NCBI GenBank assembly: GCA_031271405.1
Contig: JAISVT010000032.1
Span: 1 to 62,379 of the forward strand
DNA length: 62,379 nucleotides
Reading direction: 5' to 3'
DNA from: Candidatus Endomicrobium macrotermitis
Lineage (GTDB): Bacteria; Elusimicrobiota; Endomicrobiia; Endomicrobiales; Endomicrobiaceae
Under the pieces are notes generated by a model. The model was not told the origin of the DNA. It ran no database searches and saw only the letters and a program-made list of their open reading frames with translations. Positions 55,624 through 60,982 of the stretch are shown piece by piece. The translations under genes and the position numbers were made by a program. Position 1 is the first letter of the stretch; every line of letters begins with the position of its first letter.

Positions 55624-55700
55624 CGGGGAGTAGCGTAATTGGCTATCGCGCCTGCTTTGGGAGCAGGAGGCTGCAGGTTCAAGTCCTGTCTCCCCGACCA
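55624..55700 (+). tRNA. tRNA-Pro(UGG), CCA encoded
   Basis: Acceptor CGGGGAG/CTCCCCG, anticodon loop TTTGGGA (anticodon TGG) and a GGTTCAAGTCC T arm are followed by ACCA. CCA is encoded here, unlike the two other tRNAs of the window. Its 3' part (55683-55693) recurs at 57597 and forms the left end of a small island. Confidence 0.96.
55683..55693 (+). repeat. putative attL within tRNA-Pro
   Basis: GTCCTGTCTCC in the T-arm/acceptor part of tRNA-Pro, repeated exactly at 57597-57607, 1914 bases away. It is placed as for integrases that use tRNA 3' ends. Confidence 0.55.
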
Positions 55701-55708
55701 TTATATAG

Positions 55709-55743
55709 AAACACTGAAAATGTATATTTTTCAGTGTTTTTTT
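55709..55743 (+). terminator. rho-independent terminator after tRNA-Pro
   Basis: AAACACTGAAAA pairs with TTTTCAGTGTTT (12 bp, 6-base loop) and is followed by a T run. Confidence 0.9.
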
Positions 55744-56040
55744 ATTTTACAGCCGATGATTATGCTTTGTTTCTTTTGGTTGCTTTTGGCTTTTTTGGGG
55801 TTAGTGAGACTAAAAGTTCAGGTTATCTACACTGTTTTTTAGACGCTCTTCGCTTAGGTGGGCATATATCCTCCTTGTTTTTTAGGTATAAGAAAGCACG
55901 TCCGGTATCAAACCTAACAGATGTTGAAATGCTGAATCGTTCTTAACGGTAATACGGAGACTTGCTTAAACCGTATGCAGTTATCATTATTTGCGTATGG
56001 TTTAGACAATGCATGTACAATTGAACTGAGTGCAGATGGC

Positions 56041-56076
56041 TTGATTGTGACACTCATTTAAGTTACAATATGAGTG
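56041..56076 (+). promoter_or_regulatory. abiE promoter with overlapping operator
   Basis: TTGATT (56041-56046), a 17-base spacer and TACAAT (56064-56069). A perfect inverted repeat CACTCAT (56051-56057) / ATGAGTG (56070-56076) spans the -10. AbiEi antitoxins are known to repress their own operon by binding inverted repeats, so this is the likely operator. Confidence 0.7.
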
Positions 56077-56095
56077 CAAGAATCAAGGACTATTT

Positions 56096-56680
56096 ATGGA
56101 CAAACTTAAATCTTTACTTAAAAAGAAAGACGGTATTCTTACCACAGCAGAGGCAAACGCCGTCGGTATATCTAACGAACGCTTACGGTTGCTTGTTAAG
56201 GGCGGTGCTCTTGAGCGCGTTGCTAATGGCATTTATGCTTCGCATGATGTTTTGCCCGATAAGATGTACTTTCTTCAAAAACAAAGACCTAAGTTAATCT
56301 ACTCCCACGAAACCGCATTATTTCTTCATAATCTTACTGACAGAGACCCTATAAACTACAGCGTTACAGTTCCGTCGGGACATAACAATAAAAATATTAG
56401 AAAAGACGGATTGCGTATCTTTTACATAAAACCTGAGTTCTACAAAAAAGACATCGTAATAATGGAAACAATTTTCGGGCATAAAGTGTCCGTCTACGGG
56501 CTTGAAAGAACGATTTGCGACTGCATAAGAAGCCGCAACCAAATGGACATAGCCGTTGTCACGCAGGCGCTTAAAGAATATTCAAAACGTAAAGATAAGA
56601 ATCTTAGCTTACTTATGAAGATAGCCGGAGAGTTTGAGATAACGAAGATTTTGAGAGGATACATGGAGGTCTTGTTGTGA
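56096..56680 (+). CDS. abiEi: AbiEi-type antitoxin
   Basis: 194 residues with an AAGGA site. The N-terminal winged helix (about 1-50: KKDGILTTAEANAVGISNERLRLLVKGGALERVANGIYA) is the AbiEi_4 DNA-binding domain. The rest (YSHETALFLHNLTDRDPINYSVTVPSGHN ... VYGLERTICDCIRSRNQMD) is the antitoxin domain. The family neutralises the AbiEii toxin without direct contact (type IV toxin-antitoxin) and represses the operon. It overlaps abiEii by 4 bases. Confidence 0.93.
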   Translation: MDKLKSLLKKKDGILTTAEANAVGISNERLRLLVKGGALERVANGIYASHDVLPDKMYFLQKQRPKLIYSHETALFLHNLTDRDPINYSVTVPSGHNNKNIRKDGLRIFYIKPEFYKKDIVIMETIFGHKVSVYGLERTICDCIRSRNQMDIAVVTQALKEYSKRKDKNLSLLMKIAGEFEITKILRGYMEVLL

Positions 56681-57504
56681 AGACATCTTCGCAGTTAAAA
56701 GCTCTGATAAGAAACTTGGCCGAGAAGAAAAATATTACACCTGAAATCATCTTGCGTAACTTTATGTTAGAACGCTTGCTTGAACGCATTTCAGTTTCAA
56801 AGTATAAAAGCAATTTCATACTCAAGGGCGGTATGCTTATATCGGCAATGGTAGGTATAGACACTCGCGCTACTATGGATATAGACACGGTTCTCAAGAA
56901 AAAGAATTTCTCGGAAGCAGATATCAAGGCAGTAATCAAGGAAATCTTAACCATTCCCGTTGAGGATAATGTTAAGTTGACCTTCAAAAACATAGAAGAG
57001 ATACGCGAAGATGCAGACTATCCCGGATACCGTGTTTCCATTGAAGCGATTTTAGATAAGACGAAACAGATGATAAAGATAGATGTCAGCACTGGCGATT
57101 TTGTAACGCCCAAAGAAATCAAGTACGACTTTCAGCTAATGCTTGAGGACAGAAGCATATCTGTTATGGCCTATAACGTGGAAACGGTTCTTGCAGAAAA
57201 ACTTGAAACCGTTATCGCGCGCGGTATCACTAATACCAGAATGAGAGACTTCTACGATATCTATGTCTTAACCAAAACCCACAGTTTTGACAAAAAGATA
57301 TTTAGGAGTGCGTTAGAAAAAACTTCCGAGAACCGCAACACCGCTTTGCAGATGGCGGAGGCAGACGATATAATAGAAACCATTGAAAAGAATTCTCTTA
57401 TGGTTGACTTATGGAAAAGATACCAGAAGAAATACTCTTATGCGGCGGACATATCTTGGCAAATGGTAATGGACTCTGTTAGGCAGTTAAGACGAGAGAT
57501 TTGA
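56677..57504 (+). CDS. abiEii: AbiEii nucleotidyltransferase toxin
   Basis: 275 residues. It starts at a GTG that overlaps the antitoxin stop (GTGA), with a GGAGG site 8 bases upstream. The nucleotidyltransferase fold is intact: motif I LKGGMLIS (49-56) and metal-site TMDID with Asp68 and Asp70. Later motifs are IKIDVSTGD and LAEKLETVIARGITNTRMRDFYDIYVL. Relatives block growth by adding nucleotides to tRNA or similar acceptors with GTP/CTP and abort phage infection. All key residues seem present, so the toxin is probably active. Confidence 0.94.
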   Translation: MKTSSQLKALIRNLAEKKNITPEIILRNFMLERLLERISVSKYKSNFILKGGMLISAMVGIDTRATMDIDTVLKKKNFSEADIKAVIKEILTIPVEDNVKLTFKNIEEIREDADYPGYRVSIEAILDKTKQMIKIDVSTGDFVTPKEIKYDFQLMLEDRSISVMAYNVETVLAEKLETVIARGITNTRMRDFYDIYVLTKTHSFDKKIFRSALEKTSENRNTALQMAEADDIIETIEKNSLMVDLWKRYQKKYSYAADISWQMVMDSVRQLRREI

Positions 57505-57596
57505 AAACCGGCTACATAATAACAGGTATAGGCAGAGGAAAGGTCAGGCGACAAGACTAAAATGAGACTAAAACGTGACTAAATGAGAGTGAAGTT

Positions 57597-57607
57597 GTCC
57601 TGTCTCC
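57597..57607 (+). repeat. putative attR, copy of tRNA-Pro 3' segment
   Basis: Exact 11-base copy of 55683-55693, located 92 bases after abiEii. Three (A)TGA(G/C)ACTAAA-like boxes (57553-57585) precede it, as might be arm sites of an integrase. Confidence 0.5.
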
Positions 57608-57621
57608 GCTATATTTTAAAT

Positions 57622-57665
57622 AAAAAGCCCGTGTTTAGCGTTATTGCTATATGCAGGCTTTTTTT
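57622..57665 (+). terminator. terminator-like hairpin after the AbiE island
   Basis: AAAAAGCC pairs with GGCTTTTT across a 26-base loop and is followed by a T run. The ATG of the next gene (57651) lies inside the loop, so the hairpin may influence that gene's start. Confidence 0.55.
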
Positions 57666-58283
57666 CTAAAATATATCATCGCGTTTAAAAGATTAAGAAC
57701 GGTCCGCGTTTGTAAGGTTTCAAAAGTTCTTGCGGTGCTGGCTGCCGTTTTGCCGGTTTGCGTTGCGGCTTATGCGGACACGGAAATCAAAGTTACGGAT
57801 TTGGAGAAAAACGCGGACGGGTACAGCGTGGTTTTAAACGGAGCGTTAAAAATATCCGGCATAAAACTTAAAAAAACAAACTCCGGAAGCGAAATAGAGT
57901 TTCCGCGCTACGTAAGCAAAGGCGCCGTTTACAGGCAGATTTCGGTTTTAAACAGGGATTATAAAAAGTATCTGACGGATATTATTGAAAATGTTTTACC
58001 GCCGGAACCTGAAAGCGCAGGCATAGCCGTAAGCCGTAAAATAAATAAGTTTAAGGTCATAAACAATCACCGTTCGGTAAAAGCTTTTATGTCGGTTATT
58101 TTCGGCGGATGCGTGGAAGCGGAATGCCGCATTATGAACGGCAAATACGGAACATGGGTCGCATGGCCTGCCGTTAAAAAAGAATCGCGCCGGGTTAAAA
58201 ATTTTGAGTTTACGGATTTTAATTTAAAAAAAGAAATCGAATCGGAGCTAATCGGATATTATAATGAAAGAAACGGAAGATAA
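57651..58283 (+). CDS. exported protein with two SpoVG-like domains
   Basis: 210 residues from the ATG at 57651, which lacks a ribosome site and sits in a terminator loop; a GTG at 57735 is the next option. A basic stretch (KRLRTVRVCKVSK) and a hydrophobic stretch ending AAYA (to about residue 42) look like a signal peptide. Domain 1 (about 44-115) has LNGALKISGIKLKK and GAVYRQISVLNRDY. Domain 2 (about 125-205) has KINKFKVINNHRSVKAFMSV, ECRIMNGKYGTWVAWPA and FNLKKEIESELIGYY. Both resemble SpoVG, a cytoplasmic nucleic-acid-binding regulator. Its 3' end overlaps the first GGDEF gene by 20 bases. Function unknown. Confidence 0.7.
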   Translation: MQAFFLKYIIAFKRLRTVRVCKVSKVLAVLAAVLPVCVAAYADTEIKVTDLEKNADGYSVVLNGALKISGIKLKKTNSGSEIEFPRYVSKGAVYRQISVLNRDYKKYLTDIIENVLPPEPESAGIAVSRKINKFKVINNHRSVKAFMSVIFGGCVEAECRIMNGKYGTWVAWPAVKKESRRVKNFEFTDFNLKKEIESELIGYYNERNGR

Positions 58284-59643
58284 AAAAGACGGCGACAGTA
58301 TTTTAGATATTCTGACATCCGTAGGGCTGCCCGTTATTTCGGGAGCCCTTTTTATTGTATGGTTTATTAATTTTCCTAAAGATCCGGTTATCGCGTTTCC
58401 GCTGATATTGACGCTGGTATTGGTGCTATACGCTTTTTCCGGAAACGTTTACAGCGGAATTCTGGCGTGTTTTTCGATTGTCGCGGCTATTATAGGGTTG
58501 ATTTTTATAGAGGATTCTTCACAAATCGTATATGTGCTGGCAGAGTGCGCGCTTATAGTCGGCTTTTATTTTGTTTTTGACATGTACAGGGAAAGATATA
58601 ACGCGATGAAAAACGCGAAATCCGAAGAGTACGAAACGCTTGACAGGGAAATAGCGATTAAAGATTCCGAACTTATGGAAAATAAGAAAAGAACCGCGGC
58701 CATGCAGCAGCAGATGAGGAACTTCCAGCAAATCGGGCGAATGCTGCAGACCTTTCAGGTTTCTCTTGACGAAAAAGAAATTATCGCAAAGACAGGCGAC
58801 ATAGCGGGGCAATTTATCGGAAGCGGCAACTGGAAACTCAAGAAAAGCGTTCACGGAGACGTTTTTGCGAAATACATAAAAGACACAGGGCTTCCGTTGA
58901 TCGTGACCGACGTTTCAAAAGACCGGCGTTTTGAATTTGTCAAAAACAGATACTTGTCGGTTATAGCCGTCCCTATAGAAGTCAACGGGAATTTTTGGGG
59001 AATAATAAAAGGCACTTCTTACAAAGCGAATAATTTTAACGATTCGGATTTGAGGCTTCTTTCGATTTTGTCGGGCATAGCGAGTACGGTATTAAATAAC
59101 GTTCATCTCTACAAAAAAGTCAGCGAACTTGCCATAACCGACGGGCTTACCGGGCTTTTTACGCAAAGCTATTTTAAGGAAAGGCTCCGGGAAGAAATAA
59201 ACCGTTCGAGAAGCAACAAAGTGTCTTTAACGGTGGGAATTCTGGACATAGATTTTTTCAAAAAGATAAACGACACTTACGGGCATCAGGCCGGAGACGT
59301 TATTTTGCGCCAGCTCGCGCTGCTTTTGAGGGGAAGATTCAGGGAAACCGACTTAATAGCCAGATACGGCGGCGAAGAGTTCGGCGTGATAATGCTGCAT
59401 ACCGACCCCAAAGAAGCTTTTAAAGTTTTGGACGAAATAAGAAAAACCGTAGAAAAAGAAAGATTTTTTATTCCGGCGGAAGGCTATTCGCCGGCGCAGG
59501 TGAAAGTCACCGTAAGCATAGGTTTTGCCGAACTCGGAGAATATAACATTTCGGTCGAAAGCGAACTTATAAAACACGCCGACAGCGCTTTGTACGAGGC
59601 GAAAAATTCGGGAAGGAACAGGACGGTTGAATTTGCAGATTAA
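58264..59643 (+). CDS. membrane GAF-GGDEF diguanylate cyclase (first)
   Basis: 459 residues. Four transmembrane helices (about 17-35, 40-58, 62-80, 85-105) lead to a coiled coil (110-155), a GAF domain (about 155-290) and a GGDEF domain (about 295-455). The active motif is GGEEF at 369-373 with the inhibitory I-site RETD five residues before it, so it should make c-di-GMP and be feedback-inhibited. LDIDFFKKINDTYGHQAGD is intact. It overlaps the SpoVG-like gene by 20 bases and the next cyclase by 17. Confidence 0.93.
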   Translation: MKETEDKKDGDSILDILTSVGLPVISGALFIVWFINFPKDPVIAFPLILTLVLVLYAFSGNVYSGILACFSIVAAIIGLIFIEDSSQIVYVLAECALIVGFYFVFDMYRERYNAMKNAKSEEYETLDREIAIKDSELMENKKRTAAMQQQMRNFQQIGRMLQTFQVSLDEKEIIAKTGDIAGQFIGSGNWKLKKSVHGDVFAKYIKDTGLPLIVTDVSKDRRFEFVKNRYLSVIAVPIEVNGNFWGIIKGTSYKANNFNDSDLRLLSILSGIASTVLNNVHLYKKVSELAITDGLTGLFTQSYFKERLREEINRSRSNKVSLTVGILDIDFFKKINDTYGHQAGDVILRQLALLLRGRFRETDLIARYGGEEFGVIMLHTDPKEAFKVLDEIRKTVEKERFFIPAEGYSPAQVKVTVSIGFAELGEYNISVESELIKHADSALYEAKNSGRNRTVEFAD

Positions 59644-60982
59644 AAAAACAGCGATTATTATTGCGTTTTTGGCAGTCATTTTGCCGCTTTATTTCGTTGC
59701 TCATAACGGCGTGGGGACAATAGTCTGGGCGTATATGCTGGTTCTTGCCGGAATATACTGCGCGCAATTTTACGTAAGGATTCCCCTGATTTGCGGCATT
59801 GCCGCGTCTTTGGCCGTATTGAAATATTTCGACGTTTATCCTTACTATGTTTTGATAACCGTCGCATTTTTTCTTTCCGTAGCGGCGCTTCCGTATTACT
59901 ATTCGGTTAAAACCGAAAGCGAAGAAAAGGAATTGTCGGAGCGCAATGCAAAGTTAAGAAACGAGTACACCGAAGTTTTGTCCGCGCATTCCCACGCTCT
60001 TACGGAGAGACAAAAATACGAAGAAATGACCGAGCGCATAATGCAGCTCTACATTATAGGCAGGGATTTGTCCAAAAATATGCTTGCCGACGATTACGCG
60101 CACACTCTGGTCAGGTATCTTTCGTCAAGGACGGGCGTCATAAGCGTAAATATTTTCAACAGGGCAAAAAACGAATGGGAAGGCGTGGCTTTTTCAAAAC
60201 CGTACCAGGAGAAAGACTGGGAAATGTACATGCAGTTCAGCAAACCTCTTGAAAACGAAACGAAATATATCGTTATAGACAATCCGACTTTCTGCTCGCG
60301 CGACTACAATACGGTTTTTTGGCCTTTGAGAATAGAAAATGAGCTTTTAGGCTGCATCATAATAGTTTGTGAAAAAGCATACGCGTCAAGATATATTCAG
60401 GAAGGCGCTATTTTCGGCCCGCAGATAGCTTTGGGTACTAAAAGGGTAAAACTTTTCAGCGAAATAAGCGAAAAAACAAGAACGGACGGGCTTACCGGCT
60501 TGTATCTCAAACGTTATTTCATGGAAAGGCTTCAGTCCGAAATCCAGAGAGAAAAACGCTATTCCGGCGGTTTTTACATTTTGATGCTCGATATCGATTT
60601 TTTCAAAAGCGTCAATGACAAGTACGGGCATCTTATCGGAGACAAAATTTTATTCTCGATAGCCAAAATACTGGTGGATTGCGCAAGGCCCGGAGATTTG
60701 GTCGGAAGGTACGGCGGGGAAGAGTTTATAATATTTATGCCTTTGGCTTCTAAAGACGAAGCGGTTTCCGTAGCCAAAAAGATTATTGAAACGACCGCGT
60801 TAAAAAAATACCGCGAAAACGGCGAAGAATTCAGCGTTACGATAAGCGTTGGTTTGAGCAGCTATCCTACCGACGCCCAAAATACCGATCAGATAATAGC
60901 CGCGGCAGATAAGGCTTTATACAAAGCGAAACAGGAAGGAAGAAACCGTCTTATCATTTATGATAAAGACTTAAGGCTTTAA
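59627..60982 (+). CDS. membrane GAF-GGDEF diguanylate cyclase (second)
   Basis: 451 residues starting at a TTG (59627, or TTG 59633) inside the previous gene; AGGA lies just upstream and no ATG exists early in the frame. Layout as in its neighbour: about four helices (8-90), a coiled coil (92-135), GAF (135-275) and GGDEF (280-448). GGEEF begins at residue 363 and the I-site RPGD stands five residues before it. LDIDFFKSVNDKYGHLIGD is intact. The two cyclases look like an old duplication. The TTG start suggests coupled, lower-level translation. Confidence 0.93.
   Translation: MNLQIKKTAIIIAFLAVILPLYFVAHNGVGTIVWAYMLVLAGIYCAQFYVRIPLICGIAASLAVLKYFDVYPYYVLITVAFFLSVAALPYYYSVKTESEEKELSERNAKLRNEYTEVLSAHSHALTERQKYEEMTERIMQLYIIGRDLSKNMLADDYAHTLVRYLSSRTGVISVNIFNRAKNEWEGVAFSKPYQEKDWEMYMQFSKPLENETKYIVIDNPTFCSRDYNTVFWPLRIENELLGCIIIVCEKAYASRYIQEGAIFGPQIALGTKRVKLFSEISEKTRTDGLTGLYLKRYFMERLQSEIQREKRYSGGFYILMLDIDFFKSVNDKYGHLIGDKILFSIAKILVDCARPGDLVGRYGGEEFIIFMPLASKDEAVSVAKKIIETTALKKYRENGEEFSVTISVGLSSYPTDAQNTDQIIAAADKALYKAKQEGRNRLIIYDKDLRL

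Follow-up and report, generated by a model that had tools for sequence, protein, structure and literature searches.

SpoVG is known as a cytoplasmic regulator. In the YfiR/YfiN system, a small, exported periplasmic protein controls a membrane cyclase that is encoded next to it. SpoVG binds both DNA and RNA (PMC3688583, PMC4959528), and a pair of adjacent basic residues, K50-R51 in S. aureus and R53-R54 in B. burgdorferi, is essential for DNA binding (PMC3688583). The fold of the family (PF04026) is represented by the structures from B. subtilis (2ia9) and S. epidermidis (2i9x/2i9z). Literature searches brought up SpoVG and the stem Elusimicrobi- together only through a list of SpoVG sequences used, and yielded nothing relevant on a periplasmic SpoVG or on c-di-GMP in Endomicrobia.

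The locus described here is part of a window of 62,379 nucleotides, the whole stretch of DNA that was analyzed, from Candidatus Endomicrobium macrotermitis. It encompasses a gene for a predicted exported protein with two SpoVG-like domains, hereinafter the tandem protein, followed by two genes for membrane diguanylate cyclases (DGC1 and DGC2; Table 1). Each half of the tandem protein has the fold of the SpoVG family in common with the known structures; the protein differs from that family in the presence of two domains per chain and of an export signal, and in the loss (domain 1) or reduction (domain 2) of the basic dyad. Similarly to YfiR, it appears to be a small exported protein encoded beside a membrane cyclase; unlike in YfiR/YfiN, the cyclases lack a periplasmic domain and the tandem protein also occurs without cyclases. 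With moderate confidence, we favor the reading that the tandem protein is an envelope protein of Elusimicrobiota in which a Sec-type signal precedes two SpoVG folds and whose gene was joined to a cyclase operon in the Endomicrobium order. Under this reading, the protein is derived from SpoVG, probably no longer acts as a nucleic acid regulator and is co-expressed with the cyclases secondarily.

Table 1. Features of the tandem SpoVG-cyclase locus and its upstream region (window coordinates)
Feature	Coordinates	Strand	Remarks
tRNA-Pro(TGG)	55624..55700	+	In close relatives, immediately precedes the tandem gene
Inserted AbiEi/AbiEii stretch	55701..57607	+	Between tRNA-Pro and the tandem gene; outside the conserved operon
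Intrinsic-terminator hairpin of the upstream tRNA-Pro	57622..57665	+	Contains the annotated ATG
Gene for the tandem SpoVG-like protein (predicted to be exported)	57651..58283	+	210 codons from the annotated ATG; true start uncertain, maybe further downstream
Predicted export-signal coding region	57651..57770	+	Hydrophobic core between a basic n-region and an AYA-D/T junction; overlaps the tRNA terminator in its first part
SpoVG domain 1	57780..57983	+	PF04026, 16.2 bits; basic dyad lost; Pro-x-Tyr and Tyr conserved
SpoVG domain 2	58050..58265	+	PF04026, 24.5 bits; GxW[VI]AWPxxK; conserved Cys; one of the two DNA-binding basic positions kept
DGC1, membrane GAF-GGDEF diguanylate cyclase	58264..59643	+	459 aa; GGEEF; RETD inhibitory site; 20-base overlap with the tandem gene
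DGC2, membrane diguanylate cyclase	59627..60982	+	451 aa; GGEEF; RPGD inhibitory site; TTG start; 17-base overlap with DGC1

Two SpoVG-like domains behind a predicted export signal

The complete tandem protein matches PF04026 in two stretches, with an E-value of 2.4e-9 and a score of 37.6 bits against the Pfam gathering cut-off of 29.6, and these two halves of the ORF at 57651-58283 are the only PF04026 matches in a search of the whole genome. The same family is matched by 55 of the 56 tandem homologs; in the homolog from genome G053, domain 1 alone clears the Pfam cut-off. An AlphaFold2 model of the mature protein, obtained with 55 homologs (pLDDT 93.6, pTM 0.88), displays the same order of strands and helices twice. 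The PDB entries that Foldseek matched to this model with high probability (~1.0) are all SpoVG chains, from B. subtilis and S. epidermidis, with TM-scores on the target of 0.63-0.79 and E-values (0.04-0.26) that alone are not significant, and the profile of the tandem family matched three SpoVG sequences in the PDB and nothing else (E-values from 1.6e-6 to 6.3e-6). The two successive SpoVG-like domains that the earlier note had read from the letters are borne out by the Pfam match, the model and the SpoVG structures as best PDB matches, with structure prediction and the PF04026 profile both placing a SpoVG fold in each half; the ORF is thus predicted to encode two such folds.

The tandem protein falls far from the NCBIfam equivalog of SpoVG (NF009749), with 20.4 bits against a cut-off of 108 and with two domains instead of one. 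Canonical SpoVG proteins of Elusimicrobiota, which belong to the same fold family and the same phylum, are single-domain proteins that score ~110 bits and are encoded in loci separate from the tandem gene. In the genome analyzed here, the whole-genome PF04026 search detected no canonical SpoVG. The possibility that the tandem protein replaces a lost canonical SpoVG was considered and rejected as a general rule, given that, of the 80 relatives searched, about 24 have both. In G001, a single-contig genome of the same genus, the canonical SpoVG gene (L116, G001:C1:1446254-1446501) is matched as two adjoining pieces, as if frameshifted.

The dyad positions of both domains were aligned to SpoVG by the shared proline in 58 sequences, such that the SpoVG motif GLFVAMPSKR corresponds to the signature of domain 2. 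In domain 1, both basic residues are lost, with Tyr in 56 of the 58 sequences and a variable residue in their place. In domain 2, the two positions hold a variable residue (Arg in 18 sequences) and Lys (51/58); this domain also has Trp in place of the Phe and the Met of SpoVG, a Pro that does not vary, and a Cys shared by 55 of the 58. The complete dyad of canonical SpoVG (K50-R51 of S. aureus) is absent from the tandem protein, and SpoVG-type DNA binding seems to have been weakened or lost, judging from these two residues only; nucleic acid could still be bound via other surfaces, and one of the two basic residues persists in domain 2.

In each of the 57 homologs whose N-terminus is readable, the first SpoVG strand comes after a basic n-region, a hydrophobic core and a junction of small residues. 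All 57 are scored as carrying a Sec signal peptide by a lenient rule, which asks for the basic and hydrophobic parts and for a permissible cleavage site with a small residue at -1. Divergent tandem proteins from other families mostly have signal-like N-termini as well, and a tandem SpoVG protein from a groundwater bacterium of unstated phylum (L111:6001-6462) has a signal of the lipoprotein type (MLTAC). The tandem protein is accordingly predicted to be exported, as the earlier note had suspected from its apparent signal peptide; orthologs that start downstream of the hydrophobic stretch, which would have spoken against this, did not turn up among the 57, and the exact start is left uncertain. 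The start is uncertain because the annotated ATG lies on the 3' arm of the terminator hairpin of tRNA-Pro (-17.2 kcal/mol, z -4.8), in a stretch that shows no coding conservation in close relatives. In the close relative G003, this hairpin directly follows a tRNA-Pro-like sequence on the 3' side, as its terminator. The hydrophobic N-terminus was also considered as an artefact of a wrong start; this was rejected, because the hydrophobic stretch is conserved and the residues upstream of it are not.

Two membrane cyclases as the only GGDEF proteins found

The overlaps of 20 and 17 bases and the TTG start of the second cyclase, as initially described, are exact. Both cyclases contain the GGDEF domain (PF00990; 140 and 156 bits), with the active-site motif also present in the orthologs, and both retain the RxxD inhibitory site; these sites are common to other membrane GAF-GGDEF cyclases, from which DGC1 and DGC2 differ in forming an overlapping pair behind the tandem gene and in being the only GGDEF proteins found in the genome. 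The initial assignment of both genes to the GAF-GGDEF type stands by Pfam for both domains of DGC1 and for the GGDEF domain of DGC2; the GAF domain of DGC2 has no Pfam match and is seen only in the secondary structure of the model and in matches to phytochrome-cyclase structures. The model of DGC2 contains membrane helices separated by loops of a few residues and a GAF-like stretch, its best structural matches are bacteriophytochrome-cyclase and other cyclase structures, and its pTM is only 0.45, at which the placement of the domains is not meaningful. Four membrane segments joined by only short loops seem to make up the membrane part of each cyclase, judging from the sequence for DGC1 and from the model for DGC2; no outside domain is apparent, nor is the periplasmic sensor domain that is the target in a system of the YfiR kind.

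The genome assembly (1.89 Mb, 64 contigs) is 99.66% complete. In a search that covered GGDEF, EAL and PilZ, DGC1 and DGC2 were accompanied by two PilZ proteins and no EAL protein. Because these cyclases are the only GGDEF proteins found, the two PilZ proteins presumably read out their product. In termite-gut Endomicrobium, the tandem gene accordingly accompanies the whole of the c-di-GMP synthesis detected in the genome, which makes for a small, tractable signaling system; pilins are the sole cell appendage reported in this non-motile lineage (PMC11257099).

Distribution, gene neighborhoods and candidate roles

The tandem protein is present in 61 of the 80 relatives searched; among named genomes, the homologs come from Endomicrobium, Candidatus Endomicrobiellum and other Endomicrobia. 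A search of genome contigs with the single protein as the query gave no matches; an alignment of closer homologs did. The predicted exported double form of SpoVG is spread over much of Elusimicrobiota, more widely than the window alone shows, and conservation of a signal-bearing double SpoVG across the phylum would indicate reuse of this fold outside the cytoplasm.

The survey of related genomes suggested by the earlier note revealed a conserved neighborhood within the order: the tandem gene precedes the DGC1 ortholog in 31 of the 36 genomes that have DGC1 (with one gene in between in G053), and overlapping reading frames are seen both in the window and among its closest relatives. The remaining genomes include one with a degraded first cyclase behind the tandem gene (G047), one with the tandem gene and the cyclases at separate places (G035) and three in which the cyclase pair is present and no tandem gene is detectable (G049, G051 and G054). 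In G035, an ORF similar to the 3' end of the tandem gene precedes the cyclases, and an intact tandem gene is located on another contig (L115, L047). Conversely, a search at an E-value of 1e-4 detected no GGDEF gene in nine genomes that bear the tandem gene; among these, G010 and G025 are 99% complete, and in G016 the tandem gene is cut at the contig end. Outside the order, the tandem gene is preceded by genes for PorV-like outer-membrane proteins in several families and adjoins a large helicase gene in another. Divergent tandem genes of further families (L122-L127, L129-L131), with predicted exported products, are located near the gene for elongation factor P, and most of them also beside a HAD hydrolase gene and the gene for a large exported protein. 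Except for PorV, these neighbors are named from reading of the sequences and not from a family search. Altogether, the tie of an exported double SpoVG to c-di-GMP synthesis, which the earlier note had put forward, is real, as reflected in the conserved overlapping arrangement, but is limited to one order and dispensable in both directions.

The SpoVG identity, the export signals, the loss of the dyad, the persistence without GGDEF proteins and the envelope-type neighbors elsewhere count in favor of an envelope role. The signal would be cleaved and the mature protein would work in the periplasm, possibly as a non-enzymatic binding protein that uses the conserved Trp and Tyr positions and not contacts with DNA. 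Within the order of Endomicrobium, the tandem gene would have become part of one operon with both cyclase genes, so that the envelope protein and the c-di-GMP enzymes would be made together, without the tandem protein being an obligatory subunit of the cyclases.

The alternatives to this reading overlap in part and are not mutually exclusive. One of them involves a family of membrane proteins of ~265 residues, with seven apparent membrane segments (by eye), for which Pfam gave no match and NCBIfam none of weight. The tandem protein could be an outside subunit of these proteins, in which case the cyclases would have taken over or joined the partnership in the Endomicrobium order. The gene for the membrane protein is directly downstream of the tandem gene in five families (G053, G069, G081, G242 and G243), and the gene order in G053 is tandem, membrane protein, DGC1, DGC2; this adjacency is confined to the five genomes. 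Among 341 genomes of the phylum, 65 encode both proteins, against 10 with the tandem protein only and 30 with the membrane protein and no clear tandem protein, which amounts to an odds ratio of 51 for genomes that are related, so that the p-value is not to be taken at face value and shared ancestry alone could account for the co-occurrence. The first membrane segment of the family shows a weak profile match to that of DGC1 (29 columns, probability 30%), and the member encoded in the genome analyzed here (L118:2202-2996, minus strand, G000:C10) is two genes away from a PilZ gene. Considering the genomes in which either protein occurs alone, we regard this subunit role as rather unlikely.

The gene order might also have been inherited by hitch-hiking, the tandem protein and the cyclases being functionally unconnected. 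Survival of each without the other and the broken operon of G035 are compatible with this possibility; the retention of the adjacency across several families of the order and the overlap of the reading frames in close relatives argue against it, and we find it likewise rather unlikely.

By analogy with YfiR-YfiN, the tandem protein could be a dedicated periplasmic sensor or inhibitor of both cyclases that conveys an envelope signal via their membrane segments. Its position in front of the only cyclases found in the genome, in 31 of the 36 genomes of the order that have DGC1, and the overlapping frames are in line with such a role. A dedicated sensor or regulator of the cyclases, as the earlier note envisaged, is nevertheless hard to reconcile with the nine tandem-bearing genomes that lack a detected GGDEF protein, the three cyclase pairs with no detectable tandem gene, the different neighbors in the rest of the phylum and the short loops of both cyclases. 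We consider a dedicated sensor unlikely because the tie to the cyclases is limited to one order and dispensable both ways. The tight overlap and the conserved position could, all the same, reflect a closer tie to the cyclases than envelope function with secondary co-expression allows. Equally unlikely in our estimate is a broader scheme in which SpoVG was turned into an extracytoplasmic ligand binder. This protein would relay an envelope signal via a membrane partner and, within the order of Endomicrobium, via the only two cyclases of the cell; if true, host-associated gut bacteria would here possess a c-di-GMP circuit of minimal size.

Finally, an uncleaved anchor that would keep the SpoVG domains in the cytoplasm as a membrane-bound nucleic acid regulator, the other role proposed initially, accords with the nucleic acid binding of SpoVG and the basic residue retained in domain 2 and is highly improbable, because the basic residues in front of the hydrophobic core in all 57 homologs predict that the domains are outside, the junction has small residues, the groundwater homolog has a lipoprotein-type signal, and, of the DNA-binding dyad, domain 1 has neither residue and domain 2 only one.

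Surroundings of the operon

The gene next to DGC2 on the downstream side encodes phosphofructokinase. Upstream of the tandem gene, the window contains genes for an ITPA-like protein (named from reading of the sequence) and RNase PH, followed by tRNA-Pro and the AbiEi/AbiEii stretch, which is absent from the close relative G003. A 10-base copy of the 3' end of the tRNA (TCCTGTCTCC) is found at 57598-57607, at the far end of the AbiE stretch, with 0.08 matches to TCCTGTCTCC expected by chance in the window. This arrangement resembles the outcome of integration at a tRNA.
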